Part shown: positions 11,744 through 43,761 of the stretch, piece by piece
Position numbering within the stretch: position 1 is the stretch's first letter
Layout: each line of letters begins with the position of its first letter
Assembly: GCF_949628265.1 (NCBI RefSeq)
Contig: NC_088787.1
Span: 6,376,501-6,440,500 of the forward strand
Origin: Cloeon dipterum
Taxonomy: Eukaryota > Arthropoda > Insecta > Ephemeroptera > Baetidae
Direction: 5' to 3'
Length of the DNA: 64,000 nt
Notes under the pieces: generated by a model
What the model saw: the letters and a program-made list of their open reading frames with translations, nothing else
Database searches by the model: none
What the model was told of the DNA's origin: nothing
Position numbers and translations under genes: made by a program

Positions 11744-14700
11744 TTAAAAGTTAATCTGCTTGCATAGCGTTAGGAATGAATGATCGAATTTGCAGAAAAA
11801 AATGGGCACTTTAGCTTTATCAAAATAATCATTGTGGGAGACACGAACAGGACTCGGTTCTTCGCTGCCGAACTGTTGGAAATATTGGGAGCTCATCTCT
11901 TCGGATTGGTTTATTGGCTTCATATAGGCAGGAACCTCTTCTGAAGTGCTGCACCAGCGCACTGCTCCTTTCGAGTCTTGGAAAGTTTCATCCAAGAGAA
12001 CAAAATTTTCATCTGTTGCGAATAAACCGCGTGTTTAATCTGGTCTTAAATCAATTTTGTTCTAATGCGTACTCCAAGGAACTAGGACGCCATCTTTGTT
12101 TTCCATGAATAAAGATTTCTTTTTGACAAATTGATGGAGCATTTTCATTCTGTCGAGCGTGGATTGCGTCACTGTCACCAAGGTTCCGTTTGCTGCCGCA
12201 CACTTGGAGGCAGCGCCCGCAGGAGGGAAGCCCTGTGACAAAAGCTGTGAAAAATTCTAGTTTAAAAAAAACGGGACTAATTGCCTTTTTATCATCAGTG
12301 ATTTTATTCGTAAACACGTCGTTCAAGGGGGTTGGTTTAAAATTTTCCACTGCGAGGAATCAAATAAAATGATAAAGAATTTTTTCTAATTTTAATATTA
12401 CTCAGTTCCATGCAAGCTTCCTTCCAAGTCAAATTTTTCGGTTGCAAATATTTAAAGATGCATCGAGAGCTGTTGAATTACCAAAATACTTATAAAGAGA
12501 ATAATGAAAGAACAGAATTATTTTTTTTTAATTGGTTGTTTCAATTCAACTGTTTTAATTTTAAATTTCATTGCATACCTAACAGCCTCCTCCGTGTATG
12601 ACACTTTATTCACATACTCTACGTAGGTCCGAATGTTATCATCGAGGAGAACTAAATAATTAATTAATTATTTTCGTTTTCTTATTTCTGAAATTGATCA
12701 TAAGAAAATACCTCCATCATATGGAATATTAGTTTTCTTGTAATAGTTGTATGCAAGTAATGAAAATTTCATGCTGTAGGAGAAGTCTTTAGGTCCAAAT
12801 GCGTTATTTAAGTTCAGATTCCAGAATTGGTCTAGGAAAGAAGCAGATCCGTTGGTCAAACATTTGATAAAATCGTGAATGAAGGAGCATTTTCCTTTCT
12901 GGTTGCTCAAATTATCTGCAAGCATGATACAAAATTTATAAATCGTGCATAAAGATGATTTTGATTAAAAAGACCAACCTCTTTTGTTACATTCCTCAAA
13001 TCTATCGAGAGCCTGGTTTACGTGAAGTGTGGATTTCCAGGCTTCTTGTTTGCTCTTTTCTCGCAACATCATTCTTCCAGCAGCTTCCTTTTTTAATGAA
13101 CTGCTGGAGTATTTTTTCACAATGGATCGAAAATCTGAAAGAGTGTATTTAAAACAAAAATAGATTCAACTGCAAAAATGCTATTGACCTTCGCTGGCTC
13201 CAGGTGATTTTATTTTTTTAATCGCTCTTTCTACATTTTCCACCCAAAATTTTCCACCTTCATAAAGCTTAGAGAATTTCATGTTTTATTACGGAAATGC
13301 GTGATAATTTTTCTTACAAATCCCAAGAGCTCAGCCATGCACGTCAGTAAGCACTATAAAAATAATTTTTGGGTGAAGATATTCTGGCAGGAGATGTTAA
13401 AATACTTTCATTTTGAAGGAGGAACTATCCAAATTCATAGATCTCAATTTGTCGATTTCCCCTTAATTATAAGTAAGGAACAATTAATTTTTATTTTTAT
13501 AATATAATAAATCATACGCTGCCACACGCGATGAGTTAATTTGCATTCGTTAAAAACCTCTTGCAAATGAGACTCTGCCGGCAGTCGAGCCTTGTGAAAG
13601 TCATATTGAGCATTAAAATATTAAAAAAAGGATTCCGTTACCTCGCAAAGAGCATACAGTTTAATCTCGCAATCATCAACACTCAGACGAACGCCTTCAG
13701 CCTTTGAATTTTTCGCTTTCACGCATCTCTGAGGAACCTCCTCTGACACAAATACGTGAATTAATTAGAAATAAAAGGCAAAGTTTACTAACTGCCTGAA
13801 TAGGTGCTGTTGAGGTTGACACTCAGTTTCACAAAGTCTTTGAATTCGGCGGAGCACCATCTAAATAAAATTAGATTAATGAGAGTTAATTCCAATTAAT
13901 AATAGTTACCGGTATCGTCGATTTGCGCAGTAGTCGTCGGTGCCTGATGTCCAGAACTCTAATTCTTCATTTGGTACAACGCTCTCCAAGCACATCAGCT
14001 TCTCAAAAGACTGGATCGACACAAGACGCATTCCCAGAGAACAACAAAAGTCGAGCGAATCTTTCCAACACAGCTATGTAGAATAAAATGATAAAAATTA
14101 CGCTGTGATCTGTGTTGTGAAAAAAACTAACCTTGCTTTTTGATATCAAAAATCGAACGCCGCAAGAGGTCTTCCACTCACCCAGCCGATAGGCCTCTTT
14201 AATTTGTTGAATATTATATTTAATTTTTAAAAGTTAATTAAAAGCAAGGAACACATACTCGATAAAATTCGTTCGCCGTTCTCAATTAGTATGGCGTAAT
14301 CCAACTGGAATAAAGAGAAAAAAAAATTAAAAAATGACCCAATTTAAAGATTTGTAAAACTTACATTTAGTTGACAATAATTCAGGCTTAAACAAATTGG
14401 GGTCTCACACAGAAGCGGATCCTGGAAAAAAATAAAAAGTGCCAAAGATCCTTAAATTAATCAAGTTTTTACTTTTAATTAATTTGATCATTTCTGACAT
14501 AAAATGTTTAAAATAAAATATAAATGAAATTAACACGCTCTTACTCGCTCAATAATTGGAGCTGGAGTAGGAGCAGAGATATCAATGCCTAGAAACACAT
14601 AAATTCCGAGATGATCTTCCCTGATCACTTGCAGTAAAGGTTTTCTGGTTGAGCTCGAGAAAACTTGTTGATCTGCTTTTTGTGCTGCCGCTGATGATGA

Positions 14701-16605
14701 TTCTGCTTCATTGACCAATACTTCATCCATTTGGCAGGCGAAATTGGCCGTGGGCGCCGAGCACTGCACCTGGCGCACCCCGAAAGGCGCCCCTTCCTTC
14801 GCGTACTGCCGGTCGACGACCAAACACGAGCCGTCGTCCCGCGGGTTTATCATGTCCCAGAAGTCGTCCGTCGAGTCCCAAGGACCCAATTCGTCGTGCA
14901 AGCAGAATCGGTATTGTCCAGCGCACCCTTGGCGAGTCGCGGCCGTCCAGAAACTCGTTTTAATCAGCTCGCGGTCAGTTGAATTAACTGCAAATAGGAA
15001 TGATTCTGAGGATTTGAAGAAATTAAATTGTTTCACTGATGAAAAAAAAAATGTTCAGGCACAGTTTTTACCAAGAATAAATAAATACAAACGGAGCCAT
15101 AAACACCATAGCAAATAAAAATATTTCACTGACCGGAATTTTTAAAAAATGTAATTGAATCTTTAGAGTTGAGAGCAGCGAGGAGCTTGTCTGTGACTCT
15201 TATTGGCTTCATTCCAATGCTGCAGCACAGCTTCACGCTCTCCGCCCAAGAAGTCTATTGAATTTCGTTTTAAAAATAAATTAATTCCTAAATATTCAAG
15301 CCAAACATACCTTTTGGTAGCCGAATATGTATTTCGTAACGGAGATTTTTCGCAGTTTTGGCGTTTGCTGCCACTCCGCCCAAACGCCATTGAGGGAATC
15401 CCCTTTAAAAGATTTATTTTAATTCATTCAACATTCAGTGTGAAGTGAAATACGGTCTAATTTTCCCGCAGCATCAAAGTAGGTTATCTGTAAATTATTT
15501 AAATTAAAATTTATAACTAGGAAAAGGTAGAGAAAATCCCACATTTCGAATACAGGCTTCTCTGTTTACGCAGGAGACCCTGCTTTTACATTTGTACTGC
15601 GAAAGTAAAATTAATAAAATGTATTTTTTACTATAAACTATTGCCAGCTTACTTCGCAGAGGAAATAATTGCGGTCGTTGCAGTTCATTCGGACGAGCGT
15701 CTTGGTCATCATGGACAGCACCAGGCATCTTTCCTCTCGACTCACCTCGGCAGGGAGATCGAATTCCGCGGTCCTGATGCTGCTCCTATTTCCCGAACAC
15801 CAAGAATACGCCGCGTTGCCGCAACTTCTCGCCTCAGCCATTCCACTCGTCCACATGAACATGTATTCTGATCACCAAAATCATCAAAATTGTTCCTTTA
15901 AAAATCGCGAGGGTTACTTTGCTTCTCGATGGTCATTTTCTCGAAATTGTGCGCCAGACAATTCATGTTGTTCTCGCCGTCTTCCATTGCAACAAGTTGC
16001 ATTTTCCTTTTGGCGCAAACGAGAACCGCCTCAGAAAATGATCCCTAATTAATCGTTTAAATTCCAGAGTGGATTTTAGATTAAATTAAAAAAAAATGTA
16101 TGGAACTGAGTGTAAGCGTACTTGATTATTGCTTCTGAAGAAGAGCCGGCCGCATTTGTAAAAAATTTCTCCAATCTCCAAACTCGATGAAGCGAAAGCT
16201 GCATGGTATAAAGAAAAAACAGAAGAAATATTAAGATCTCTGTTTTTTAATTAGATTAACCTACAAGACTCAAAAACGGATGTAAAATCTGTGAAAATTT
16301 TAGCCTGATAATTAAATGGGTTAGTTTTTTATTAAAATAATAATTACCGTCCTTAATGGCGGTGCTGAGGAAATTCTAAAATAAAAAAAACAATGTTTAT
16401 AGTTTGTAAAATTTATTTAAAAAAAACAAACACTGAGTTTTGAGTCGTGCAGAGAGCAGTCACCCGCCGTGCAGGCTTTTGGGGTCACTAACGCATTCTT
16501 GCAAAAGATAAAAATTAATTAAATTTATAAGTACAAAATTAAATACATAATATATACAATTGCTTCATTAAACAAGAGCAATATCAATATTTTTGTCGGA
16601 TTCAT
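11744..16605 (-). CDS. Multi-CTLD/OBP fusion protein, array copy 1
   Basis: Many short exons, read by splice sites and alignment with three paralogues. Order from the N-terminus: signal-peptide exon 16558-16605 (MNPTKILILLLFNEAI); cysteine exon 16434-16497 (CTAGDCSLHDSKL); CTLD1 about 15640-16375 (AKRKMQLVAMEDGENN, then MFMWTSGMAEA); linker 15540-15594; CTLD2 about 14533-15400; linker about 14365-14420; CTLD3 about 13670-14310 (DFCCSLGMRLVSIQS, EFWTSGTDD); an OBP-like module about 12707-13610; CTLD4 11744-12650, ending FLTLCKQINF. The OBP-like cysteines are C-x27-C-x3-C (CLLTC), then C4 in FEECNK, and CSFIHDFIKC (C5-x8-C6). None of the CTLDs shows an EPN/QPD plus WND calcium site. Predicted size is roughly 1,000 residues, secreted. 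Function unknown; extracellular ligand recognition is inferred. Confidence 0.75.
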
Positions 16606-18143: not shown

Positions 18144-21100
18144 TCAAAATTTATGTTTGCACAGCGATAAGAAATCAGTATCAAATTGACAGAAAAACAT
18201 CAGTAAAGGATACTGAGCTGATTCTTTGTAGCTAAAATATAAATAAGCTTCTTTATAATCCTGAGAAGAATAGTAAAGAAAGCGATCTGTTGCTCCACTT
18301 GTTGCCTGACCAGCAAACTCGAGTAATTCCTCTGATGTGCTACACCAGCGAACAACTCCTCTTGAGTCAGTGAAAGTTTCATCCAACAGAACGGAGGCTG
18401 CAGAACAATAACTCTCAATTAATTTAATAAATTCTAAACTTGAATTTTGTTGTTTACTGTATTTTAAAGAGTAATTATCGAGGATTACAGATGCTTTTCC
18501 GATATTTTGCACGACACTGTCATAAGAATCCAGGTCAACATCACTCAAAGAAATCTCAGACATAACAACATAGGCTGCAAAACAATAAAATTATTATTTT
18601 AATAAGCACACTTTTATAATTAACATACGGTTTATCATAGATCCTACAAAGTTTGTTGTTACTTTGCTCAAGATTTCCTTTAAAATTCTGATATAAGCGA
18701 GGCTGGACAGTGTTACTACTGGCAAGGTCCCGTTTGCTCGGGCGCACATAGCAGCTGCAACCGCCGGGTGAATTCGCTACGAACAAAATTAATATACCGG
18801 GAATATGTGGGGGAAGAATTAATTGCCTTTTTTGGATCGGTGATTTTATTCGCATAAAAACCTTCCACGGGAGTCTGTTCAAAGTTTTCCGCTGGAGGAT
18901 TTTTTATTTATTTATTTATTAATTTATTTATTAATAATCTCAGGGTGTTTTCTTACCTATTTGGGAGCATGCATCTTCAAGAGTAAAATTTTCAGGACGG
19001 AAATATTTGAAGTTACAAGAAGAACTGAATTTTGTTTAAGATAGTTTAATATCGATATCTTCCAGGGAGATTACCTGACGAATTCTTCAGAGTTTGACAG
19101 TTTATTCACGTACACTGCGTAACTCCGGGGGTTTGGATCAACCGGGGCTGCATGGTTTGTTTTTAATTTAAATGTTTTTTTTTTCAAAGAGAAAATTTAA
19201 AACCTCCTTCAAATAACACGTTTTTGCCTGTCTTCAGTGAATCGTTATAGTAATAACCGCTCGGTATTCGCAAGCTGAGAGCGTAGTCTCTCCAGTCAAA
19301 TAGGTTGCGCAAGTCCATTTCCCAGAATTTTGCCAATGAAGGAGGTCCGCTGGTGAAGCACTTTATGAAATCGTGTATGAAAGTACATTCTCCTTGCTTC
19401 TGGTTGGACTGAACTGGAAAAAAATAAAAAAGAAGCAATTTTAGGATTAAAAATCTAAAATGTATTTGATAAAAACAATTATTAATGTTTTTAATTTCGT
19501 TCTTGTTTAATAGGGTTTGCCAAAAACCCGAATTTCCCGTAAAAACCGACTGCATTGCCAAAAACTGTTTTTGGAGTTTTTCTGCAATTTTGCGATTTTT
19601 TCCCAAAATGTGCTTAAATATGAATTTAGCAAACTCTTTATTAAAGCCACTGGTTTCACCAAAAGACCGAAAACTTTACACTCAAAGTAATTTTCCAAAG
19701 TTCCTGGCATATTTGGCGTGTAATCTGACTTTTTCAGGGACAAATTCGGAAAAACCCAAAATTGGCGGTTTCCCCCAGCTGGTTTTTCGCGAAAAAAAAC
19801 CAGTGGTGCGTTTTTCTTGGCGAAACCTGTTTTTTAACAATAAAAAGACGTTTCTTTCTTTTGACTTATTCCAAAAATATTCATTTAGAGATAATTAGAA
19901 CTGTATTATTTTGAAAATTTTCTGCCAATTACCCATTCGGTTACACTCCCAGAATCTGTCGAGCGCCTGATTAACGAGAAGAGTGGATTTCCACGCCTCT
20001 TGTTGATTATTTTCCATCATAATTATCCTTAGAGCGTCCAAATTATCGGCTGCCTTTTTAAAAAGACTGGTCGGATATTTTTTCACGACCGATCGAAAGT
20101 CTGAAATAAAAAAAGAAATCATAGAAAAGCACTCTATTCCAGAATTTTCTAGACTATTTAACCCTCTTCAATAGCTTGAGACCCTTTATATCTTCTCATC
20201 GCTTTCTCTACATCGTCCTCCCAAAATTTTCCTCCTTCGTACATCTATGTTTCAATGGATTTCTGCGATTAAATTCGAATTTTTAACTATTCTCACCAAT
20301 CCTAAGAGTTCGGCAATGCACGTTGCAAAGCACTAGATATTTATCAAATTATAGTTTAAAATTATATTTCCCCGTTTCAATTTTACTTTCATTTTGTACG
20401 AGAGCCTATCCAGCAAACCTGTACTCTTGAATTTTTCGAGTTCACCTGCGGTTTTCAATTACATTTTAATGTTAAAATCGATTTTTCAAACCTTACGTTC
20501 CGAGACGCGATGGGTCAATTTGCATTCGTTAAAAATCTCTTTCAGATAGGATTCAGCCGGTAAACGAGTCTATGGATCAAAGGCGGGAATTAATTTAAAA
20601 TGCCATTAAAAATTATCTATTTTATTACCTCGCAAATAGGTTGCAATAAGTTACTTGCGCAATTGACAGCGTGCAGAGTTGGCCCTTTTTCATCTGTGTT
20701 TATCAGTTTTAAACAAAACTGTGCCTGGTTTTTGTCTAAACAATTTTAAAATTTAATTTTAAATCCTGTATTTTATAATTATGTGCACTCTGACTGTCAG
20801 AGTAGTTGAAACTGAGTTTAACCCAGTCCTTGAACTCAGGAGAACACCACCTACCAGTTCAAAGATGCAATAATTGATGTATTATTATCTTGAAAAAAAA
20901 ATCACCTGAAACGGCCATTGCTACATTCATCGTCTGTCCCTGATGTCCAAAATTCTCTTTTCTTCGGTATTATGTCGGCAAGGCAAATTGTCTTTTCATA
21001 AGACTGAACAGACACGAGACGCATTCCCAAGGAACAACAAAATTCGAGAGAATCTTTCCAAGACAACTTTAATAAAATATTTAATGCAGCATTAACACCC

Positions 21101-24080
21101 AAAGATTAAATTTAAACCTCTAACTTTTTCTTTGTAAAACAAATAACGCACTCCGCAAGACGTCCTCCACTCCCCCAGACGGTTAGGCTCTATAAAAATT
21201 GAAAATTCTTGATAAATCACGTAATATAGAAAAGCTCTTACTCAAAAAAACTCTCTCATCCTTGTTCTCGAATGGAACCGCATAATTTCCCTGCAATTAC
21301 AAAATAAAAAATGTCAAATGTATCATTTAATCACAAGATAATTACATTTATTTCGCAAAACTTCATTTTGGAACAATTGGGTTGATCACAAGCAATATTA
21401 ATCTGTCAGATTAATTAATATTTTAAATTAAATCTTTCTCCAATCCAACTAAAACCTGTTGATCAGTTTTCCCCGATCCTGAATTGACTACGTCATCGAC
21501 CCTTTTGCCGTCCGTCTGACAAGCGAAATTTCCTGTAGGTGACGAGCACTGCACCTGGCGCACCCCGAACGGCACCCCTTTTTTCGCATATTGCCTGTCG
21601 ACGACCAAACACGAGCCGTCGTCTCGCGGGTTGACCATGTCCCAGAAGTCGTCCGTCGAGTCCCACGGACCCACGTCGTCGTGAGAGCAGAATCTGTATT
21701 GTCCAGCGCACCCTTGGCGAGTCGCTGCCGTCCAGAAGCTCGTTTTAATCAGCTCCCGGTCTTCCGAGGCATTCACTGTACGGATTAATCAGCTCTTTTT
21801 TTAAACTGTTTCTGTTTGTGAAAAGGAAATAATCTAAAAATGTCTAAAAGTAAGCCAAAGAACTTGTAGCAGTTCAGGAGCTTTGTTGTGAGCCAACAAT
21901 TGAATAATTTAATTGTAATTTTGCTCTATTGTTAAAAAGAGGAATGATACTGGAAAAGCCTGGAAAATGCTTGTTGCCAATGCATAAACTCATCCCTTAG
22001 GATTCAGTTGAAGCCTAAATTGACCTAAGAAGTACTGTAATTTTTTGAGAAAATTGGCTGGGAAGTTACCGTGCTTTTCAAATGGTAATGGCTGTCTCCT
22101 TACTTGAAATCCGAGTTAAATTCAAAACCAAGAGTTTCCCCAATACGTGGCATACACCGTTGGACAGATCTCTACGAGAGGAATCGGAATATGCCAAGAA
22201 AATATGTTCAAGCACTCTAAATTTTGGAGAAAAATGGCAAAATTTGAATTTTTACTGTAGGAAGGTCATTTTTATTATTGCAAATTGTTGAACAAATTGT
22301 TTATCGGTCAATTGTTTAAGGCATCCAACAATTTAAATAGTTTTCAATTGTTGCCCAGTATCATTCCACTTTAATTGTGCAGAATCCGATTCAAAGGGGT
22401 GAGTTCAACCGTCAGTTTAGGTTCCATTAATTTTATTGTAAAACAATTTCAGTTCTGAGTGTCCGATCAGATTTAGACTGTAAAACCATTTTGCATCAAC
22501 AAAATTCTTCATATAATTCATCAGTATTATTTCTACCCTTTTCTCATCCCCAAACATTATTTATTTGTTAACTTACCAGGATTTTCGAAAATGGTGATGT
22601 CATTGTTGGAGTTGAGGGCCGCTAGAAATTTATCTGTGACCCTGACGGGACTCATTCCAATGCTGCAGCAGAACTTCACGTTTTCCGTCCAGGTTACCTT
22701 AAATATGTACATAGTATTGTATATTTAATATTGATTAGTTTTGGATGAGGATTGCTCACCTTTTTGTTCCCAAATATGAAAGTCGTGAATGAAAACTCAC
22801 TGATCCAGAAGTTTTTCTGCCACTCCGCCCAGACGCCATTTAACTTATCACCTTTTTTAATAAATCTCTTTACACGCATCCATTTCAACAAAATTTATAA
22901 ATTATTTCCACCTACGCTCCAACCTTTTTGAGCCGTCAAAATACAAGCTCTGCCAGTTTTAAAATACTGACTTGTACATATTCAATTTTTATTAGAGCAA
23001 AAATCATACATTTTTAACACAGATTTGTTCCTTCAAGCAGGAGACGGTCTTGCAATTGTACTTCAAATGCAAATATTACAAAAAACTCCTCTCGTAATTT
23101 GGCATACCTCGCAGTAGAAATAATTTTGCCTTTTGCAGTCCATGCGGATGAGTGTCTTGGTCATCATGGACAGCACCAGGCATCTTTCCTTGCGATTCAC
23201 CTCCAAGGGCAGATTAAATTCTTCGGGCCTGATGACGGTTCTGTTTCCCGCACACCACGAATACGCCACGTTGCTGCAGCTCCTCCCTTCTGCCATTCCA
23301 CTCGTCCAGATGTACGCATACTCTGAAAGATAATTTAATATTGCTAATTAACTAAAACAAATATGTCCAGCGATTTACTGTAGCTATTTTGATCCTCGAG
23401 AGACATTTTTTTCAAATTGGGCACAAGACAATTCATGTTGTTCGCTCCTCCTTCTGCTGTGACCAGTTGCATTTTTCGTTTGGTGCAAATTAGAGCGGCA
23501 TCAGCAAAACTTGCCTGTTAAAATAGATAATCTCCTGCAGTATCACTTTGTTTAAATTTTCAACATACTTGATTGTGGCTTCTGTAGAAAAGGCGTCCGC
23601 ACCTGTAAAAAATTTCGCCAATCTCTACGTTGCTGGAAATAAATGCTGAAAGTGCGGCTAGAAAGAGAAAAAGGGGTTTCGGATAAATTCTAAATTTAAA
23701 AATAATCAACTAACAAGTTGCAAGCACTGATGTAAAATCTGCCTCATAAATGTTACGGTTAGAAATTTCACAATTAATTTAAATCAAATTTTTTACCCTC
23801 CGTTATTGCGGAGCTCAGAAAATTCTAAAAAATTAATCCTGATAAATTCTTCCCTGGAGCATTATTAATAATATTTCTACCTTGAGTTTTGCATTGTGTA
23901 AAGAACAGTCACCCGCAGTGCATTTTCTTGGTTTGGTAGTTTTATTTGTTAATATTTCCAATGCTCTCTGTCAACGGCAAAAATTCATGATATAAATCAA
24001 GGAAATTTTTTATTTCTTACAATCGACTGGAAAAGTAACAGAAAAATGAAAGCTGCTGCTGCTGCTGGAAACGCCGCCAT
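18144..24080 (-). CDS. Multi-CTLD/OBP fusion protein, array copy 2
   Basis: Same order as copy 1. Signal-peptide exon ends at 24080 (start MAAFPAAAAAAFIFLLLF); CTAGDCSLHNAKLK exon about 23880-23970; CTLD1 about 23060-23830 (YIWTSGMAEGRSCSN); CTLD2 about 21425-22860; CTLD3 about 20630-21290 (FWTSGTDDECSNGRFR); OBP-like module about 19190-20580 with C-x28-C-x3-C (CFATC), C4 in RFWECNRM, then x12 and CTFIHDFIKC; CTLD4 18144-19110, ending FLSLCKHKF. The last coding exon may run without interruption to about 18577, because the intron that precedes VLLDETF in the other copies can here be read through in frame. The intron in the OBP module holds about 400 bp of unrelated insert (about 19500-19900), and the CTLD2 intron carries a TTAA-flanked transposon. 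The other copies are tandem neighbours in the same orientation. Confidence 0.75.
21936..22370. mobile_element. Non-autonomous piggyBac-like element, copy 1
   Basis: Lies in the CTLD2 intron of array copy 2. Inverted ends (AGAGGAATGATACTGG at the left, the complement with one change at the right) are flanked by TTAA on both sides. No ORF. A reverse-complement copy of similar length is at 42290-42694. TTAA target sites are typical of the piggyBac superfamily. Confidence 0.65.
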
Positions 24081-25762
24081 TCCGCTCTTTCGAATGGTAG
24101 AGCTAAGCGCAAAAATATTTCACATTCGATTCTGCTTACAAAGCCAACGTTTCGCTTCAACGGAAACGAGGACGTTTGGCAGGATGTCAATGACTATCAC
24201 AGTCAGTTCATTTTTCAAGCACAGACGGGAATTCAGTCCATACATTTTCAGTTTGAGTTTTGAGTCACTGAATATAATATTCGATGATTTCTTTCTCTTG
24301 CAGAAAACATATTCAACGAAACTAACAATGAGTTATAAATATTATTTTTTTTAAATAGGAAATAAAATACCAATGCCACTCTTTTAGCAGTAAAATCAGT
24401 TATATTTTGTTAAAATTTTCCCGCAAAAAATTGCAAAATATTGGTTAATCTGGACGGGGAAAATTGGCCGCTTGGTATCAAAACTTAAGCGATTTATTTT
24501 TTTAACTTACAGAAAGAGAGACTGTGCCGGCGAGCAGACCTTCTGCGCGGGTTGCATATGTGTCAGTCCAGATCGAACAGTTTTTATCCGTTTTTATCAC
24601 AGTTCCTGATTTAATGGGCCCTCTCAAACCAATTAATATAATCAGGGGATATTTTAGAGAGATTGAATTATTTTAGGCTGAAATTAAACCGCCTGGTCAA
24701 TCTTGAAACGAGTATTTCAAACGTTACGATACAAAAATTAATTAATTAATTTCTGCTCATCTTTTCAAAGTTGTGCGTCAGACAATTAATGTTAACGAAA
24801 TTAATTAGTATTTGTTAAAATTTAAACATGATTTATTTATTTTATTTTTCTCGCCATTTAATGTCTGGATGCGAGGCATTATCCGAAAGGAGGAACATGA
24901 TAATTAAAGAGTTTTTGGCTTAATTACCTAACTGATGTTTTATTATTTTTTAATTTCTTTCATTTTGCCTACATTCGGCTCCACCAGGACTGCACCATAA
25001 CGGAAATGAGGCGTCAACATTGTTGCCTCATTATACTCGTCGCTTTGGCTACGCGCTGGTTCGAAAATTTATGTCACACTGGACGTGCACGCTGTGCCGC
25101 TGAGCAGAGCGTTTTTGCAGGTTGCATATAGTACAAGTTACGGTTTATTCCAACACCTGTAAAATTTAATAAATTTTACGAAACCATTGAATTTTATACA
25201 GGTCTCTAGAATGGCGAAAAGAAAATACCGGAGCTTAATGGATGGTTTTAAATAAAAAATATCATTGCCGGAACCAGCGGGGGTCAGAGATGTGCGATAA
25301 AATTGGTTCGCACTGCGCAGATCCAAGATGGCGTCTGAATGTGGGAAAGAAAAAGCTCTCTTTGGATTGCCGTACGAGTGTAAAAGTTTGTTTTTACGAT
25401 CCAAAAGACACAATTAGTAAAATTAATGCAAATTATAAGTCACAATTTTGAAAAAAAAAACTTGCTTCTTTTCGCGCATTTTCACGTGGCCGTTTTTTCC
25501 GCGCCATACTCCTCCGGATGCCATATCTGCGCGTCGCACGAATCTGGACCCCGCTGACCGGAACAATACTTAACTAAGCCACTTTTCAAAATTAATTTTC
25601 TCTTTGGAAAAATGTAAAAAAAATCGGAATAAACCAGCTATCAAACTATCAATTTAATACAATTTTTTAGATAATTTAGAAATATTAAATTGGTTTTATA
25701 ATTCAATGGGATCAATTCTAGAAAACTAATAAGAACGGATTAAAATTTAAAATATGAATTTA
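24081..25762. other. Intergenic with small repeats
   Basis: No gene seen. It holds a hAT-like element (25275-25556) and two copies of a dispersed motif of about 45 bp with the core CTGTGCCG...GGTTGCATAT (about 24520-24562 and 25088-25132). Confidence 0.45.
25275..25556. mobile_element. Non-autonomous hAT-like element, copy 1
   Basis: 282 bp with inverted ends CAGCGGGGGTC and its near complement. The flanks are 8-bp direct repeats, GCCGGAAC and ACCGGAAC (7 of 8 identical). Eight-base target duplications and CAG-type ends fit the hAT superfamily. Related copies are at 35342-35616 and 46596-46847, in the opposite orientation. Confidence 0.7.
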
Positions 25763-28700
25763 TTAATAATTCAGTTTGCACAGCGATAGGAAATCATGGT
25801 CAAATTTACACAAAAATGCCGATACATATGCATAATCTAAGTTGTAATAATCGCCTCCTATAGATTCAAAACGGTGTTCATTTGTGCGTGACATATAGTA
25901 GAAGTGAAACAGAACATTGTCACGTCTAGTTTCGTTCAATTTGACAAAAGCAGGAACTTCTTCCAGAGTGCTGCACCAGCGAAACACCCCTTGCGAATCC
26001 TCGAAGGTTTCATCCAGTAAAACAGAATTTTTAGCTGCAAAATAAGATTTAAAGCTTGATTTAAATATTTCAGTTTTAATCACCATCAAAAAACAGGCTA
26101 TGCAAAGAGTTTGGGTCACTGGCTAAATTACGAAGAATGGCGAAACTATCGAGAGTGGCTTCTGTCACTGTAACTAAACTCCCGTTCGCTTGGGCGCACA
26201 TTAATGCTGCGAGCACCGGGGAAAACGTCTGCAATTAAATTAGTTATTTACAAGTAACATTTCCCAGATACCTCGAATACTTGTTTATTGACTGCTTTTT
26301 TTGCTAAAATTTCGTCTACTGGGGTAGGTATGAAGTTTGCCACTGCGAGGGAAATAAATTCATTTTGTATTTAATTTTTTTTTCTCCGTAAAATTGAATT
26401 ATACCTAATTTCATGCAAGCATCTCTAAGAGATAAATTTTTCGGTCGCAAATAACGAAATAGGCAACGTGAACTGAAAATTTAAATTATGCAAAATGGTG
26501 AAAACAATCAAATTATAATGCTAACACAAAAACCAATTTAATGAAATGGCGTTGCATATTTCAAATTTTTAACTGGTTTTGATTTTTTTAAAATTTAAAC
26601 AGGAATAGATGTTAAAGTATTAAAAACTTGTTCCTTTTGATATAGATCTTTCAAATGGTTAGCTAAGCAAATTTAAGACTGAGTAAGTATTTTTAATTTG
26701 GTGTTTTTTGTCGATTTTAAATTCTAATGTGCTTTCCAAACGTTAAATCTGAAAATTTACTGTTTAAAAAGGATAAAAATTCATCGTTCTACCAATTCCT
26801 TCAGAGCTTTAGCATTTATTGAAGAAATATAATAATAAATAAATACACACGCATTACCTGACCACGTCTTCCTGGTACGAAATTTTATTCACACTTTCGA
26901 CGTACGTCCGGATATTCGGATTGAGGGGTGCTAGTTTAATTTATCGTTATTATTTTCAAAACCGATTTATAAATATAATTATAGCTACAGCCTTCACGGA
27001 AGGGCATATTTCCCTTAACGTATTTATTGTAAATTTCAATGGGAAATTGTAATGCATATGAGACATCTCTTCGCTCGACAATGTTGTGCAAATTTGAGCT
27101 CCAGAGATTTTCCAGTGAACTATCGTTGGTAAAACATTTAATGAAATTTTGTACGAAAGAACATTCTGCGTCGCTGGCTTGAACTGCAAGTGTACAAAAA
27201 TTAATTTGTTTGCAACTAATTGAAAAAATAAACAAACCAATTCGGTTACATTCCCAGAACCGGTCAAGCGCTTTGTTTACAAGTAGAGTAGATTTCCATG
27301 CCAGTTGCTTTCTCTGTTCTAAAAACAGTAGTCTCAGAGCATCCATCTTATCAGTAGCCTTTTTTAATATGTCAATTGAATATTTCTTCAATAAAGATTG
27401 GAAATCTGAAAGATTTGAGTTAAAATTTTGTATTCACGCTCCATTAAGTTGTACCGGCGATAGCTTCAGGCACTTTGACTTTCCTCATCGCTTTTTCTAC
27501 GTTGTCCTCCCATATTTTGCCACCGTCATAAATCTAAAAAATTTATTTTTCTCCTAAAATTAGGTAAACTTTTATAAATTTATAGTTTTTACAAATCCCA
27601 GGAGTTCAGCCATGCACGTCATTAAGCACTGATTAAGATTATTTCATTGTAAAAACGTGGTGTACATTTTTAGAATGTAGAAAATACTTTCATTTTGAAC
27701 GAAAATCTGTCAATCTCAGAGGTGTTGAACTTTTCTACTTCACCTGTTAAATTATTTGACATTTAAGAAATAACCTCTTTTATATTTTATTTACGTTGTG
27801 AGACGCGGTGTGTCAGTTTGCATTCGTTAAAAACCTCTTGCACGTGTGATTCTGCCATTACGCGGGTCTTAAATCATATATTTTAATGGAAATAAAGTGA
27901 ATTCCTTGTCAAGGTGTTTGATTTTACCTCGCAAATAGGTTGGAGAAGCGTTTCGTAGCAATCAGTAACGCTCAATTTGACACCCTCAAACGTGTTTCTC
28001 GCTTTCACGCAGTATGTCGCATTTTGAGAATCTTTAAAAATTATTGCTATTCATTGAAAACTATTTTTTAAATACGCACTCCCCGTGTAAGTGGTGTTTA
28101 AATTGACGTCCGGCTTCACAAAGTCCTTGAATTCGTGTGAGCACCACCTTAATTTTGTTAATAAGGCATGCAAATATCCAAAAAACTAATCAAAATAATT
28201 ATAATTACCTGTAGCGATTATTCTTACAGCCATCGTTGGTGCCAGATGTCCAGTATTCTCCGTAATTTGGAATCACATTGTCCAAACAGTTCAGCTTTTC
28301 AATCGACTGGATTGACAAGAGACGCATTCCCAAGGAACAACAGTAATCCGCAGCAAATATCCATCTTCGCTGTAAAAAAAATTTATAATTTTGATTTTTG
28401 CATATTTGAGATTTTAGCGTGGTTCATTCTGCTGAAATATCACGTATAAATATCAAATATGTGTGTTTTTTTTTTTTTGTAAAACTCACTGTAGTATTAG
28501 CGATCAAAAAGCGAACCCCACAAGACGTCTTCCACTCACCAAAACGATAGGCCTCTTTAATTTTGTGCATTAATTATAAAAGTTAATTCATTAGGTTTGA
28601 ATGCGCGACGAATAAAATTTATTTTCTGGCAAAAATGTAATTAAATAATTACTTAGCAAAACTCGTTCGCCGTTTTCAATGTATACAGTGTTTTCCCACT

Positions 28701-30903: not shown

Positions 30904-31220
30904 GATCCTATCGCAGTATTTGATTTTAAACAGAAAATTTTCTGCTTCCACGGAAATTTCCACTATTCTGCCTAAGCTCACGTTGACGGGTATTGCGACC
31001 AAACGGAAATAGGAGCAATTATATTTTGCCTGCACAGTGCGTGCGTCAGTAACAGATAATTGCTTCAATAATTTTCCCATCCGTAATTTGGAATAAAATA
31101 TTAAATTTTAATTTTTCTTGACGCATTGTGAGAGTTCCGAAACCTGAACAATGTGTTTTAAGTAAAATAAATCCAATGATCTTTAGTTATCAATTTTTGA
31201 TATTAAATTCGTTAAATTCA

Positions 31221-31622
31221 CCAGTTGCATAAACCCTAAGTGTTTGAAGCCGCCAACAGATGGCGCCACCTTAGACTTTAGATTTTAAGGCACTTCTGCT
31301 ACGATTTCAGACTCAATTAATTAAAATTCAATTAATATGCTTTTTTGACGTGTTGAAAACCAAAATCGGTTCAGCCAATCGCCGCAGAATCGTAAAAAAC
31401 TATTTTTGAAATAAAAAAATCTTTTCCAACGTTTCTACGGCGAAAGGCTGAACCGATTTTGGTTTTCAGCGCATCAAAAGAAAGCAAATTAAAAGAAAAA
31501 TGCTAAATAGCTAGATTGTGACTGAAATCGCAGCGGAAATGCCTTAAAACACAATTTTTTAAGAAAGTCTGTAGTTGCGCCATCTGTTGGCAGCTTCGAA
31601 CACTAGGGGTTTATGCAGCTGG
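31221..31622. mobile_element. Full-length palindromic (foldback) MITE, copy 1
   Basis: About 400 bp, and nearly the whole element is one inverted repeat. The left arm begins CCAGTTGCATAAACCC and the right arm ends with the near complement. Conserved internal blocks include AACCAAAATCGGTTCAGCC and its complement. No ORF. Other copies: 49900-50325, a truncated one at 36773-37152 and a badly decayed one at about 37165-37378. The target duplication could not be fixed by eye. Confidence 0.75.
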
Positions 31623-31791
31623 TCAATTGTGATTTATATATCAACACATTGTGCATAAGTAAACTATCAGTTTTATAACTTTAAATAATATAGGACGATA
31701 AATTATTTTATAAGAGAATGTTAGGAAAAGTAGAAAAATATATTTCCCTACCTTTTTTATTTAAAATATCTATACATCCAGCATTACACAA

Positions 31792-34952: not shown

Positions 34953-35341
34953 GGCCACAATATTTTCGTGGGTTTACGTTCGTAACGCGTAAAATTCGCG
35001 GTATTTTCTCACTCAAATCAAGGAAAGGTTTCACGAAACACACACGCACTTCATACACATCACGCACTTCGCACACATATATCACGCACGTCATTCACAA
35101 CACCGTACGAGAGGCTATCCAGCAGTTGATGTCAGCTGATGGGAGGGAAACAACAGTGGTGTAGTTACCTCCCCGAACCTTCAGGTGGCGGACAGGGTGT
35201 TTCCATTACTCTCGCAGGCTTTAAAGTAAAAACGGTGCGGGAAAAGGGATGCTCTCAGAAAAAAAACGCTCGACACAAAGATGACGTTGTACCCAAAGTG
35301 TGTTAAATTGCATTCCTTTTAGCAAAATAAAATATTTTTAC

Positions 35342-35616
35342 CAGCGGGGGCCAGATTCGTGCGACGCGCAGATATGGCGTCCAGTGAAGTATGGCGCGAA
35401 AAACGGTATCTTGAAAATGCGCGAAAAGAACCAAGTTTTGGTCAATATTGTGACATTATTTGCATTACTCTTAACTAATTGTATCTTTTGGATCGTAAAA
35501 ACAAACTCTTGACACTCGTACGGGAATCCAAAGAGAGCTTTTTGCTTCCCACAATCAGACGCCATCTTGGATCTGCGCAGTGCGAACCAATTTTATCGCA
35601 CATCTGGCTCCCGCTG
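35342..35616. mobile_element. Non-autonomous hAT-like element, copy 2
   Basis: 275 bp with ends CAGCGGGGGCCAGATTCG and a matching complement. It aligns to 46596-46847 over its whole length and to 25275-25556 as reverse complement. It lies directly beside a kinase gene fragment. A clean target duplication is not visible. Confidence 0.65.
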
Positions 35617-35635
35617 CCTTTTTCAGTTATAGATG

Positions 35636-36491: not shown

Positions 36492-39400
36492 TCAATATTT
36501 CTGTTTGCAAATCGATATAAAGGCCATGTCAAATTTACAGTAAACCAGCGGCACATTATAAAATTCACTCGATATGTATTTGCCGAAGATGTAACCGGGT
36601 GTTCCCTCTTCTTCGGTGTAGTAAAAAAATGCATCAAGAGCATTAAGGGAATATTCGTCCAAACCGTCGGGCGCGTACACCTCTTGGGAGGTGCTGCACC
36701 AGCGAAACTTTCCTTCAGAGTCAACATACGTTTCGTCCAAAAGAACTGAAAAAGCAATAAGTCATTTTTTTTGTGTTCAAACAGATGGAGCCACCGTATA
36801 CTTTCTTAATGAATTTCATTTTAAGGCACTTCCGCTGTGATTTTAGACTCAATTCTGCCACTGTGCATTCTTCACTTAATTTTCTGTCTTTTGACGTGCT
36901 GAAAACCAAAATCGGTTTAGCCATTCGCCGTAGAATCGTGAAAAACTAGTTTTTGAAATATTAAATCTTTTCCAACGTTTCTACGGCGAATTGCTGGACT
37001 GATTTTGGTTTTCAGCACGTCAAAAGAAAACACATGTAGTGAAGAATGCTCATCAGCAGGATTGAGTCTGAAATCGCAGCGGAAGTGCCTTAAAATTAAA
37101 TTTATTACCAAAGTATTCGGTGGCGCCATCTGTAGGTGGCTTATGCAACTGGTGTATTTAGGAATTTTCCGCTTTGAATTCGGTCTTAATCCTGCTTTTA
37201 TTTATTTTGATGGGTTGAAAAAACATAATCGGTTCAACCAAGCGCCATTGAATACTAAAAATCTTTGGAATTTCACCGGCTGATTTTTGTGTCTAGCGCG
37301 TTAAAAAATATATTTAAAATTCACATAGTGGCACGATTAAGTCAGGAATTGCAAGTAACCGGTGGCGCTATTAAACACTAATATAGAGGAATTTACATTC
37401 AGCAAGCGTAACTTGATCAAGATTGCGGGTAATATTTTTCAGGATAGCGTTCAAAATTTTTAAATCTGCGACGTTAGATTCCGTTACTGAAAGCAAACTT
37501 CCGTTTGCTCGGGCGCACATGGTCGCTGCAAGCGCAGGAGAATAAAGCTACGAGATGAAATTATAATTATTAGCTAGGAATTTAATTTATTTTGCGTTCA
37601 CTGCCTTTTTGTAGTCGACGATTTTACTCATAAAGACACCTGCCACAGGAGTTGGATCGAATTTCTCCACTGAAAATTTTTAATTCCTAGCTTTGGGATT
37701 TATTTTATAATTAATTTATTACCTATTTCAAAACAAGCATCTTTTGTGGTCAAATTTTGTGGGCGAAAGTGTGGAAAGGTGCAAGGTGAACTTTTTTACA
37801 TATTATTAGAGATTACTCAAGTTTTAATTGGCGAAATACCTGACCATCTCCTTCAAAAACGACACTTTATTCACAACGTCTATGTAAGTACGAGGGTCGG
37901 GATTGAGATATTCTAAAATTGATTAATTTATGTGTTACTTGGTCTATTTATTATTTAAAATAATATTAACCTCCTTCAAACTTCATGTAACGTTGTAAAT
38001 CTTGAAACTCATAGTATCCCACCTCGATTCGCATGCTATTCGAATAATCTCTGGGATTGAAGAGGTTGCGCAAGTCCATGTTCCAGAATTTTTCAAGCAA
38101 AGTAGATCCATTCGTGAAACATTTGATGAAATCGTAAATGAAAGAACACTCGGTTTTTGTAGGTTTGAATTCAACTGTGAGCATGAAATGCAAATATTTT
38201 TTGAAAATTACAATGATGGAATTAATTATTAGATTGAGTGAAATAATTTGAAAAAATGGCAAACCGATGCGGTTGCATTCCCAGAACCGGTCCAGCGCCG
38301 TATTCACGAGAAGAGTGGATTTCCAATCCCGTTTCTGACTTTCTTCTTGCAACATCATTCTCAGAGCATCGATATTGTCGGCTGCCTTCTTGAATAAACT
38401 GGCGGGGTACTTTTTCACAATGGAACGGAAATCTAAAATAATAATTAACATTTGAATTTATCTCCAAATGAATGGCTTTCAACCTTCAAGGCCTTCAGCT
38501 GATTTAACTTTTTTAATTGTTTTTTCCACAACGTCCTCCCAAAATTTCCCGCCATCATACATCTGTAAAAATTGCTTGAGTTTAGAAAATAAAAATTTAA
38601 AAATATTACAAATCCAAGAAGTTCAGCCATGCATGTTGAGAGGCACTTAAAATAAATTGTTTAAAATTTCTCGATAACCATTTTTCGTGGGATTTTTATA
38701 CTTTCATTTTGACCGTGAAACTATTTATACCAGCGGAGTTAAATTTATCGATTTCCCCTACAATTATTGAGTTTCAGAATCACACGAACTGCGTAAAAAC
38801 ATAAAATCATACGTTGCGAGACGCGGTGAGTCGATTTGCATTCATTAAAAACCTCCTGCAGATGTGATCCGCCGAAACCGCGAGCCTTTATTTAAAGTCA
38901 AAATTTAATCAAAGGTCAAAGGTCGCTAACTGTTTTAATTTACTTCACAAATTGGTTGAAAATTTTCAAAGCATTCAACCGGGGCCAGAGTGGGACCGTC
39001 AGCGACCGAGTTATTTATTTTCAAACAAGCCTCGAACTTGTATCGACGGGAATCCTCTACAATCAGTCAAATTTGAATAATATTAAATTATATAATTATA
39101 GTCCTTCCGCATTGGGTCTGACTGTATTTCTTGTATTTCTCTGCGGTGTCATTTTTTAATACGCTTGGTTTCACAAAATCTCTGAATTCGGGAGAGCACC
39201 ACCTGATTGTTTGTGTAACAAAATATTCAATTGATTGAGTTCTATAATTATAAATCACCGGAAACGATAATTCTGGCATTTATCGTCGGTAGCCGATGTC
39301 CAGTAAAATCCGTGCTTTGGAATTACTCTGTCCAGGCAAGCTAGTTTTTCAAAAGACTGAACCGACAGCAGACGCATTCCTAAAGTACAACAAAACTCGA

Positions 39401-42400
39401 TAGCTTTTTCCCAGACCATCTGCGAAATCAAAATTATTTCAGAGTCAATTCTAAATCTAATTATTTTCTTGTTTTTTAATTTAATGACAAATGTCGAGAA
39501 AATAATATTATCAGCACTGAAAACGTAACAATTTAATTAAATTCCAGCTCTTTTTGATCAGCGCTTAAAAAAATCGAATGGATATTAAATTTCCTGACTT
39601 TTTGGCTTTACCATCAAATAATTTATTTTCAACAACCTACGTCTTTGTTATGTATCAAAAAGCTGACACCGCAAGAGGTCTTCCACTCGCCCAAACGAGA
39701 TGGCTCTTTAAATTTGATTAATTTATTTAGAAAAAATTTTAATGAGGGGAATTTTAACTGTACTTATCAATACTCTTTCGCCTCTCTCCATTGTTAACGC
39801 GACATCCTTCTGTATAATTGAAATAAGTGCATGAAAATGCATTATTTGAAATGTCCAGAACGGTACAAAAAAAATACATTAATATCACATAGCGCACTCC
39901 CAAGTGAACAATGCGGCTGCTCACAAGCCAGAGAAGTCTGTCAAATTAAAAAAATCAAAATATTAAAATGAAAGAAAGTAGTCGATTATTTCTAATAAAT
40001 ATATATAAGGCTAATAATTTTTATCTTGGATATTTACATTATTTTTATTTGATCCCGCATTGACCAAGTCGTCGATCCTTTTGTTTTCCATTTGGCAGGC
40101 GAAATTTGCAGTGGGCGCCGAGCACTGCACCTGCCGCACCCCGAAAGGCGCCCCTTCCTTCGCGTACTGCCTATCGACGACCAAACACGAGCCGTCGTCC
40201 CGCGGGTTTATCATCTCCCAGAAGTCGTCCGTCGAGTCCCAAGGACCCAATTCGTCGTGCAAGCAGAATCGGAATTGGCCTGCGCACCCTTGGCGAGTCG
40301 CGGCCGTCCAGAAACTCGTTTTAATCAGCTCGCGGTCATCCGATGCATTTGCTACAGGAAACATAGTAAAAGAAATAGGATAGTTAAGATGTTTTGGGCT
40401 AATTAGTCCTGTTTAAATGTGTTCTTGGGTGATTTAGGAATAGTTTATAGCAACATTCAGGCTTTAACCAAAACATCTTTATTTTTCACCTTTTAGAATT
40501 ATTCTTGAAGAATGCAATAAATTTGTTTAAAATAGAATGACGGGGTTGGCTGTCGAATCATTTTCTTGATTGTAAATTTCCACAAATTAGACAATACATT
40601 TTTAATTTAAAAATTCAATTTGCAAGTTAAAATTTCTCACTAAGAACCACAAATTTTTACATTATTGTATTTGAAGTTATTGTCTAATATATTTTAATTT
40701 TAGCAGGTATTTTTTAATCGATTATTGTATAAGAGAAATATTTATCCCCAACCTTGATTGTTGTAAATAATACTAAAGCTGCTGTTTGAATTGAGAGCAG
40801 CGAGAAGCGCATCTGTGACTTTGACGGGCTTCATTCCAATGCTGCAACACAGCCTCGTGTTTTCCATCCACGTTATCTTAAAAAATGAATCATCTTTTTG
40901 ATTTCTACATGTATGATTTTCATAATTTAGCTACCTTTTTGTAGCCAAATATGTACGTCGTGTAAGACATCCTGTTGATTCCCAAGTCTTTCTGCCATTC
41001 TGCCCAAACACCAATCAGCTTATCGCCTTTTTAAAGCAGGGATGAGTTTCTTAATTTGATTTCTTTATAAATAAATAAATTAAAACAGAATATTACGGTC
41101 CAATTTAGCTGTGGCATTGTTGTCAAAATATATTTTCTATAATGCATTTTCAAAAATTAATCTGGAGTTTTAGATCGTTCTAGATAGTTTATCAGTATAC
41201 ATTTTGTATACACTCCTCTTTCTTCATGCAGATTGCAGTCTTGCACTTAAACTTTAGATTATTTATAAGCGTTTTTTTAACAAACCTCAATATGTGAACA
41301 TTTGCAATGGATCGAGTGTGTTTAATATCTTAGGAATTTTTTTCTCAAATTCTGGACTTCATAAATACACCTGATAATAAAAAAAGGAAATTTATCAGCT
41401 TACAGAATGTGAAAATGTGTACTTTTTTCTATAACCAATAAAAACTTTCAAAGTCCAGTAGAAGATTTTCTCAGACTGTTAAAAATTACCAACTAATAGA
41501 TTTGTCTCTTTAAACACTATGTTCATGGAATAAATTTCAAAATAATTAAGAAATTTCTGTTTTAAAATCAATTTTAAAGTTATTAGCAATTTTTCCAATA
41601 AAACGGTGGAATATCAGCTATTTATAAAATGCCTCCTTTGAGCAATCAACAAAAAATATCCAACCCCTAGATTTTTTTTTAATTAGGGAACACCTTTTTA
41701 AAGATATGTATTACTCCTTATTGTCCTTGCAGAAATGTTCGTTTCTAAATTACGCGTACTTCGCAGTAAAAATGATTGGTGTCATTGCAGTTCATGCGGA
41801 CGAGCGTCTTGGTCATCATTGACAGCGCCAGGCATCGCTCCTTGCGATTCACCTCCAAGGGCAGATCAAAATCGGCGGGCCTGATGTTGGCCCTGCTGCC
41901 CGCACACCACGAATACGCAACGTTGCTGCAGTTCTTCCCCTCGGAAATGCCACTCGTCCAAATAAAAATATATTCTGATCGGTACATACACCTGTATTTG
42001 ATTCTGGGTATAAGAAAAGAGAATTTCAGCTTACTCATGTTCTCTTGCTCCTCGAGTGTCATCTGGTCAAAGTGGGGGGCTAGACAGTTCAGGTTTTTTC
42101 CTCCGCCGTCAATTGTTACCAGTTGCATTTTTCGTTTGGCGCAAATGAGAACAGCATCAGAATATTTTACCTTTTTAAACGAAAAATAAATAAAATCCTG
42201 ATAAAATCAGCCGCAGGTATTGAAATTCCTTACTTATATCTGTTTAAATAAGAAATACTGAAAATAACTCCTGGATGGAAAATAGTTAAAGTGGAATGAT
42301 ACTGGGCAACAATTGAAAATGATTTAAATTGTTGGATGCCTTAAACAATTGACCGATAAACAATTTGTTCAACAATTTGCAATAATAAAAATTCAAATTT

Positions 42401-43761
42401 TGCCAATTTTCTCCAAAATTTACAGTGCTTGAACATATTTTCTTGGCAGATTCCGATTCCTCTCGTCGAGATCTGTCCAACGGTGTTATTGGGGAAACTC
42501 TTGGTTTTGAAATTAAATCGGATTTCAAGTAAGGAGACAGCCATTGCCATTTAAAAAGCACGGTAACTTTCCAGCCAATTTTCTCAAAAAATTACAGCGC
42601 TCATTAGGTCAATTTAGGCTTTAACTGAATCCTAAGGGATGAGTTTACGCATTGGCAACAAGCATTTTACAGGCTTTTCCAGTATCATTCCTCTTTAATA
42701 TTTTCCTTTTTTTCTAAATCTTTCATATGTTGCAAAGTTTGACTCTACTGTAATAAAGTATTATTTCAGTGTTGGCATTTGTTTCTAAAATTTATTTTAA
42801 TTCTTGTTTTTTTAAAATTAGCTTTTTTATCTTCTTGCTTAAAAATATTTTAAAATTTGCAAAATCGGCTTACTAATGCTGGGAATGATTTCATTATTTC
42901 ATAAAAAATAATAAAGTTAATTGTTAAGCCAACGTTTGGTATCAAACAATTCCTAAATTTATTTAAACACTCTCAGATGCGACCAGAAGTAAAATCAAAA
43001 ATTTCCGGGAAAATTCCGTAACTTTTGGGAAGGATTTAGCTCTACTTTAAATTGTTCGCGTAGGTTTATAAAAAGTTGAATTACATAATTGTCTTATATC
43101 TGAATACACTTGCTCAAAAATGGATTAATTTTATCAGAGATTCTTAATGTGGGATTTTCAAGAGGCCATTATTATTTCCAATTCCAAAAAGCTCTTAGTT
43201 AAATTATATTATTATTATTATATAGCGCACATACTTTGAAATGGCCTCTGTAAAAAAGTCGTCCGCATTTGCTGATAACCTCCCCTAGCTCCATGTTTCC
43301 AGAGGTAAATGTAGATAATGAAGCTAAAGAAAAAAAACGAGGAAAATAAGTAGTTTGATTAAATAAAACTATGTAGAATTTTATAATTTTTTTCAACTCA
43401 CAGGTTTTTAGAAATGAAGTATAATCTGTTACATATTTATACAAAAATTTAGTATTTAAAATGCACCATTTCCACCTTAAAAAATACCTGTTTCAATCGC
43501 AGTGCTTAAAAAACTCTAAAAATTAAAGTATTTGCAGAATTTTCCTGCACAAATACCATTATAACTTATTACCTTCAACTTCATATCGTGCAGAGCGCAA
43601 TTTCCAGCCGTGCATTCTTGCAATTTAGGTGCTCTTGTTGTAGACAATGCATCCTTGTATAAAAATTAAGACATAATTCTTCAATTTTTTTTAAATAATA
43701 TATATGAATTTACAACTGGTAAGAATAAGAAAAAACCAATCAACAAATCAAAGAGAATCAT
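36492..43761 (-). CDS. Multi-CTLD/OBP fusion protein, array copy 4
   Basis: Signal-peptide exon ends at 43761 (MILFDLLIGFFLFLPV). Then an ECTAGNCALHDMKLK exon (about 43572-43650); CTLD1 about 41755-43530, with large introns (FIWTSGISEGKNCSN); linker FKCKTAICMKKEEC; CTLD2 about 40011-41035; CTLD3 about 38945-39815 (FYWTSATDDKCQNYRFR); OBP-like module about 37970-38890 (FNECKSTHRV, KMK-CLSTC, LDRFWECNRI, CSFIYDFIKC; spacing C-x27-C-x3-C-x85-C-x12-C-x8-C); CTLD4 36492-37915, ending AFISICKQKY. This is the longest copy because a TTAA element (42290-42694) and foldback MITEs (36773-37378) sit in its introns. The exons keep open reading frames, so it looks functional. Confidence 0.75.
36773..37152. 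mobile_element. Foldback MITE, truncated copy 3
   Basis: Same family as 31221-31622; the right end is complete (TTATGCAACTGG) and the left end is shortened. It lies in the intron before the last exon of array copy 4. Confidence 0.65.
37165..37378. repeat. Strongly decayed relic of the foldback MITE
   Basis: Retains scattered blocks such as AATCGGTTCAACCAAGCGCC and GGTGGCGCTATTAAACAC. Divergence is far greater than in the adjacent copy, so it is probably an older insertion. Confidence 0.45.
42290..42694. mobile_element. Non-autonomous piggyBac-like element, copy 2
   Basis: 405 bp, the reverse complement of 21936-22370. Ends AGTGGAATGATACTGGG and its near complement, flanked by TTAA at 42286-42289 and 42695-42698. 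It lies in a CTLD1 intron of array copy 4. Confidence 0.7.

Follow-up and report, generated by a model that had tools for sequence, protein, structure and literature searches.

A 64,000-nucleotide stretch of the genome of the mayfly Cloeon dipterum (RefSeq assembly GCF_949628265.1, contig NC_088787.1, positions 6,376,501 to 6,440,500 of the forward strand; hereafter the window, whose own numbering is used throughout) carries a tandem array of four complete genes on the minus strand, from 43761 to 11744. Each is predicted to encode a protein of 977–1017 amino acids (aa) in which C-type-lectin-like domains (CTLDs) are joined to a module of the odorant-binding protein (OBP) family. Four same-strand genes had been proposed in a sequence-only reading of this DNA; they lie on the minus strand, and the outer limits given there, 11744 and 43761, are exactly the g1 stop codon and the g4 ATG. 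The genes were modelled as follows:

16605-11744, minus strand: g1, 28 exons, 1017 aa; hydrophobic N-terminus, CTLD1, CTLD2, CTLD3, OBP module, C-terminal domain
24080-18144, minus strand: g2, 28 exons, 985 aa; module order as g1
30903-25763, minus strand: g3, 28 exons, 977 aa; module order as g1
43761-36492, minus strand: g4, 28 exons, 990 aa; module order as g1

The g1 model was built by hand; for g2–g4, g1 guided a spliced protein-to-DNA alignment, with borders set by hand where the raw output differed, namely at the first exons and the exon 11/12 linker borders of g2–g4 and at intron 22 of g3. All four models have 28 exons and are free of internal stops, and their phases agree at each of the 27 junctions; the proteins, of about 112–116 kDa, contain 44–45 cysteines each. 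GT-AG borders were found in 105 of the 108 introns and GC-AG borders in three (introns 16 and 26 of g1 and intron 26 of g2), a count that is partly by construction because the aligner permitted no donors other than GT and GC and no acceptor other than AG. These three GC borders are placed with the least certainty. Exon 11 of g1 was modelled longer than its counterparts in g2–g4, and its 3' end is also uncertain.

Protein identity is 55.9–58.7% across the six pairs of genes. With intron pairs omitted when either member reached at least 300 nucleotides (nt), 26 of 27 exons showed higher identity than the intron that follows, and exon 17 showed equal identity. Uncorrected Nei–Gojobori proportions of nonsynonymous (pN) and synonymous (pS) differences were calculated for the same six pairs. 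The ratio pN/pS was below 1 in every module and pair tested (CTLD1 0.24–0.42, CTLD2 0.23–0.38, CTLD3 0.34–0.51, OBP module 0.28–0.35, linker 0.38–0.58), with the fastest change in the C-terminal domain (0.52–0.64); these values are rough because pS is high and the proportions are uncorrected. The array genes are under purifying selection. Pseudogenes were ruled out, all four models being intact and constrained. Judged by these models, the array is a tandemly amplified gene family that has been kept intact.

In each gene the OBP module is encoded directly after CTLD3:

12776..13590, minus strand: g1 OBP (PBP_GOBP) module, exons 18-23, residues 602-781
19277..20569, minus strand: g2 OBP module, residues 575-759
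27056..27867, minus strand: g3 OBP module, residues 570-749
38038..38885, minus strand: g4 OBP module, residues 582-764

Intron 17, which leads from CTLD3 to the OBP module, measures 51, 59, 60 and 58 nt and is in phase 0 in all four genes. Introns 18–22, within the module, measure 47–63 nt, except intron 22 of g2 (519 nt) and of g4 (90 nt). The reading frame continues past the module through a linker and the C-terminal domain to the stop codon, and no separate signal peptide was seen at the first OBP exon in the four genes. A single frame for both domain types across an intron of 51–60 nt makes a fusion of lectin-like and OBP domains in one predicted chain far likelier than two genes. Such a fusion had been the central claim of the sequence-only reading, and the gene structure, the Pfam hits and a PDB sequence match speak for it. 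The alternative considered there, OBP exons that form separate genes, is unlikely given how short the introns are, that all four genes share their phases and that no separate signal peptide was seen at the OBP exons.

The full proteins matched the Pfam family PBP_GOBP with expect values (E) of 1.8e-8, 1.3e-7, 6.9e-9 and 3e-8 for g1 to g4 (32.1–36.2 bits against a curated cut-off of 22), and all four isolated modules matched it as well, the best with E 8.5e-12. In g1 the best stretch paired module residues 7–89 with positions 10–89 of the 113 in the profile, and a second stretch was also present. Searching with PBP/GOBP and CTLD profiles, a check suggested at the outset, placed both Pfam families above the curated cut-off in all four proteins. 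A PDB search with the OBP profile was headed by the odorant-binding protein 5dic (E 1.6e-5); three further OBP chains followed at 0.00098, 0.0048 and 0.2, and a pheromone-binding protein at 0.5.

Exactly six cysteines, all invariant, are present in each of the four modules, in the order C1-x27/28-C2-x3-C3-x81..86-C4-x10..12-C5-x8-C6. The spacing first proposed held for C1–C2, C2–C3 and C5–C6; the x12 given for C4–C5 is not universal, being x10 in g3, and the C3–C4 interval, about twice the classic length, had been omitted. The residues described around C3 (CMAELLGF, then GGKFW) were confirmed in part, but g2 has CIAELLGL and g3 has GGKIW.

The lectin-like and C-terminal domains were placed as follows, all on the minus strand:

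15591..16178, minus strand: g1 CTLD1, residues 55-189
23625-23055, 30438-29880 and 43291-41246, minus strand: CTLD1 counterparts in g2, g3 and g4
14725..15400, minus strand: g1 CTLD2, residues 218-375; probably without a Pfam hit, profile-related to CTLD3, holds exon 11
22849-21510, 29692-29062 and 41024-40086, minus strand: CTLD2 counterparts in g2, g3 and g4
13585..14188, minus strand: g1 CTLD3, residues 473-603, the last two encoded by the first OBP exon
21181-20564, 28546-27862 and 39697-38880, minus strand: CTLD3 counterparts in g2, g3 and g4
11747..12580, minus strand: g1 C-terminal domain, residues 827-1017; at most weakly CTLD-like
19076-18147, 26859-25766 and 37841-36495, minus strand: C-terminal domain counterparts in g2, g3 and g4

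Lectin_C matched the full proteins with E values of 5.7e-9, 1.7e-7, 4e-5 and 3e-7 for g1 to g4, and 8 of the 12 isolated CTLD pieces (E up to 10). From the stretches matched in the full proteins, these eight pieces are probably CTLD1 and CTLD3 of each gene, and the two domains can be called CTLDs firmly at the level of profile matching. Aligned with hhalign, CTLD2 gave a probability of 96.7 to CTLD3 and 94.9 to the combined CTLD1 and CTLD3 profile, with a score of 50.5 that was reached by none of 100 column shuffles; to CTLD1 alone the probability was 0.2. Of the three CTLDs of the sequence-only reading, CTLD1 and CTLD3 are backed by Lectin_C and CTLD2 by its profile likeness to CTLD3. Its fourth, divergent lectin-like domain was not established. 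The C-terminal domain alone was matched by Lectin_C in none of the four proteins. Its hhalign probability was 8.7 in one comparison; local alignment gave 15.7 to CTLD1 and CTLD3 combined, 29.2 to CTLD3, 0.2 to CTLD1 and 1.0 to CTLD2, and global alignment 0.0 to CTLD1 and CTLD3 combined and 0.4 to CTLD2. The local score is 26.1, above the highest of 100 column shuffles, which was 20.4; the domain may be CTLD-like at most weakly. In the PDB, the CTLD profile came closest to the mosquito proteins mosGCTL-1 and mosGCTL-3 (E 1.2e-7 and 7.1e-7), in a list of 57 rows up to E 0.1 that also holds two non-CTLD rows of integrin alpha-L (E 0.016).

Exon 11, in CTLD2 (14689-14988, 21474-21773, 29026-29325 and 40050-40349), is far more alike among the genes than the rest, with 84–88% DNA identity to one copy. 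Here pS is 0.13–0.39, pN is 0.01–0.06 and GC content at third codon positions is 0.70–0.85, as against 0.49–0.51 overall, and pS in CTLD1, CTLD3, the OBP module, the linker and the C-terminal domain is 0.45–0.86. The likeness could be due to gene conversion or to strong or unusual constraint.

A C-type lectin that binds sugar in a Ca2+-dependent manner typically carries EPN or QPD plus WND. The four proteins contain none of EPN, QPD, EPD, WND, WID and FND at any position; g1 has EPS at residue 980 and g2 has QPN at residue 414, in each case outside CTLD1–3. A neighbouring CTLD gene (3908-3486, minus strand; Lectin_C E 4.3e-17) has both EPN and WND and served as a positive comparison. Glycan binding, proposed in the sequence-only reading, is therefore not supported for the array proteins, and neither is canonical lectin activity. 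EPN, QPD and WND are also the motifs searched for in PMC6275457, according to which the majority of CTLD proteins bind no carbohydrate.

The N-terminal hydropathy maximum is 1.48–2.21 in the four proteins, compared with 1.18–1.35 elsewhere, and by hydropathy no second strongly hydrophobic segment was found in any of them. The signal peptide claimed for each gene is backed by a hydrophobic N-terminus in all four, weakest in g1, as judged by hydropathy alone. Taken with the 44–45 cysteines, these features make a secreted, disulfide-rich scaffold the best reading, and the array proteins are predicted to be secreted.

This architecture was read from the sequence; as to function, the proteins may be scaffolds that are secreted, with a small hydrophobic ligand carried in the OBP module and with non-canonical CTLDs that attach to a surface or a binding partner, a role that we consider somewhat probable. 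An OBP-family (PBP_GOBP) module would then sit in one secreted, disulfide-rich chain with at least three CTLDs. Rather than working as Ca2+-dependent lectins, the CTLDs, stabilized by disulfides, would bind a protein or surface. The OBP-type module might keep its ligand beside the CTLD-bound surface, a role suggested by its family membership, and the enlarged C3–C4 segment might reshape or cover the ligand pocket. Ligand or partner may differ among the four copies, mostly through the faster-evolving C-terminal domain.

Several observations weigh against this proposal. The C3–C4 spacing is 81, 86, 85 and 85 residues, about twice that of classic OBPs (about 36–46 residues); it lies outside the classic range, and the module is therefore best termed an OBP-family module and not a Classic OBP. 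The C4–C6 half by itself was matched by Pfam in one of the four genes (g1, E 0.043, profile positions 80–111, in the right register), and the C1–C3 half is the only part matched firmly. A PYD domain (E 0.0097) and CpoB (E 0.48) stand among the seven rows that the OBP-profile search of PDB returned up to E 10, so its match there is modest. In addition, CTLD2 was assigned by profile comparison alone, and the N-terminus of g1 is barely more hydrophobic than the rest of the protein (1.48 compared with 1.32).

The proteins might instead be secreted immune pattern-recognition molecules of the insect CTLD type, their OBP module taking up a hydrophobic microbial compound and their tandem duplication and unequal evolution reflecting contact with microbes. 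The CTLD content of a tandem array that adjoins another CTLD gene, the mosquito CTLDs as nearest PDB relatives and the rapid change of the C-terminal domain would all fit; nevertheless, the canonical sugar-binding motif is absent and pN/pS nowhere exceeds 1 in the modules and pairs tested, and an immune role is held to be possible but rather unlikely. A structural role is similarly doubtful. The OBP module would then have lost its ligand pocket and would act only as a disulfide-stabilized helical spacer in a protein of the extracellular matrix, mucus or cuticle. Such a spacer could accommodate the doubled C3–C4 segment, the poorly matched C4–C6 half and CTLDs that have no sugar motif, but the four copies keep every one of the six OBP cysteines, and the module's pN/pS is among the lower values of the protein.

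It is quite improbable that the six-cysteine module is some other helical module resembling an OBP by chance. The long C3–C4 interval, the weak second half and the PYD row speak for this; nevertheless, PBP_GOBP passes its curated cut-off in every protein, no other Pfam family matched the module better than E 0.022, and the three best PDB sequence matches are all OBPs. Moreover, in 31 of the module's 42 windows the hydrophobic moment was larger at 100 than at 170 degrees, counted with no control, the exceptions lying around C2–C3, in part of the inserted segment and in a few other places; such periodicity lends weak support to the presence of helices. Hardly credible, finally, is a separate CTLD gene and OBP gene in each unit, wrongly joined in the models: the models are known from DNA alone, those of g2–g4 were guided by g1, and intron 17 of three genes carries AATAAA/ATTAAA hexamers, but these are uninformative because many other introns of this AT-rich DNA carry them too, and against two genes stand the short phase-0 junction in all four, the lack of a signal peptide at the OBP exons and the continuous coding into a further conserved domain.

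A search of titles and abstract starts in open-access PMC found no description of a CTLD–OBP fusion, although absence there is not proof that it is undescribed. As far as that search shows, the architecture is new, a new combination of known domain families. Most work on OBPs has treated them as small proteins of a single domain that carry odour or pheromone molecules. They are not known outside hexapods. D7 salivary proteins and double-domain ('Dimer') OBPs are secreted, are larger than one OBP and repeat OBP-like modules. Like them, the array proteins hold an OBP-type module in a larger protein, but they combine a single one with CTLDs. The array modules resemble insect OBPs (PBP_GOBP, PF01395) in their Pfam match in all four genes, their six cysteines and their C2-x3-C3 and C5-x8-C6 spacings; they differ in being embedded in a protein of about 1000 aa with CTLDs, in having no signal peptide of their own and in a C3–C4 interval of 81–86 residues. 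'Dimer' appears as an OBP class name in PMC13205551, which describes 10 OBPs of 135–252 aa in the mayfly Parafronurus youi, the full-length ones with a signal peptide. In a table of PMC6275457, 0 OBPs are given for each of the eight non-insect arthropods listed.

On the lectin side, mosGCTL-1 and mosGCTL-3 (PDB 9t9z and 9ta0) are the closest PDB sequence relatives of the CTLD profile. Their chains have 151–198 residues, whereas the array proteins have 977–1017 aa, include an OBP module and are devoid of EPN/QPD and WND. Immulectins are likewise secreted CTLD proteins of insects. The mannose-receptor family (DEC-205/LY75, PLA2 receptor) comprises membrane receptors with several CTLDs per chain and other domains. 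Its members are matched by the CTLD profile (E 2.4e-6 to 7.1e-6), but the array proteins differ from them in having no strongly hydrophobic second segment and in having an OBP module.

For C. dipterum, 191 OBP genes were reported in PMC7250882 from BLASTP, HMMER with Pfam-based profiles and TBLASTN, and 82 of 167 OBPs were found to be expressed in gills. Words beginning with 'lectin' do not occur in the main text of that paper or of PMC13205551. A conserved family with an OBP inside a multi-CTLD protein would show that the OBP module has been reused outside olfaction, and would be a warning that profile-based OBP counts can take in other kinds of protein. It is conceivable, though on balance unlikely, that in this lineage the OBP fold has become a mobile module, placed in large CTLD scaffolds that work outside olfaction, and that part of the 191 C. 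dipterum OBPs are such fusions instead of small carriers of odorants. A chain with two types of binding domain would offer a concrete, testable protein for the question of non-olfactory OBP function.

Further copies of the array genes were sought by tblastn in the exon-masked window, which besides the neighbouring CTLD gene gave short scraps only, at 24793-24755 (minus strand, E 0.14) and 48135-48058 (minus strand, E 0.001 with g3 and 0.91 with g4). Three other matches at E 0.44–0.60 were taken as chance. The regions 48058-48194 and 24755-24793 on the minus strand are similar to two exons of the array genes, exon 15 (35 nt, 94%) and exon 5, and such exon-like scraps are perhaps relics of lost copies. 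One scan of viral contigs for relatives gave 93 pattern matches, none of which was confirmed.

Two tandem related genes lie on the minus strand at about 7340-3486 and at 2071-1, the second cut by the end of the window. In the first, a long coiled-coil repeat region (a 735-aa open frame, 4125-6332) precedes a CTLD that has EPN and WND; over 729 nt of the 5' part, the DNA of the two is up to 75.6% identical. Two other related loci of three open frames each were found between g3 and g4 (33800-31792, minus strand) and beyond g1 (9496-11389, plus strand). They are 31–42% identical piece by piece, and one frame of each has a weak leucine-rich-repeat match below the Pfam cut-off. A dispersed element at 31215-31629, 36780-37142 and 49894-50332, foldback or similar to a miniature inverted-repeat transposable element, has copies that match in both orientations, one of them inside the last intron of g4. 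In addition, a repeat of about 280 nt, 81–88% alike, occurs in two array spacers and beyond g4 (25275-25556, 35327-35616 and 46582-46847). An open frame at 62454-62945 (plus strand) matched Glyco_transf_49 with E 2.7e-18 and was taken as a separate gene.

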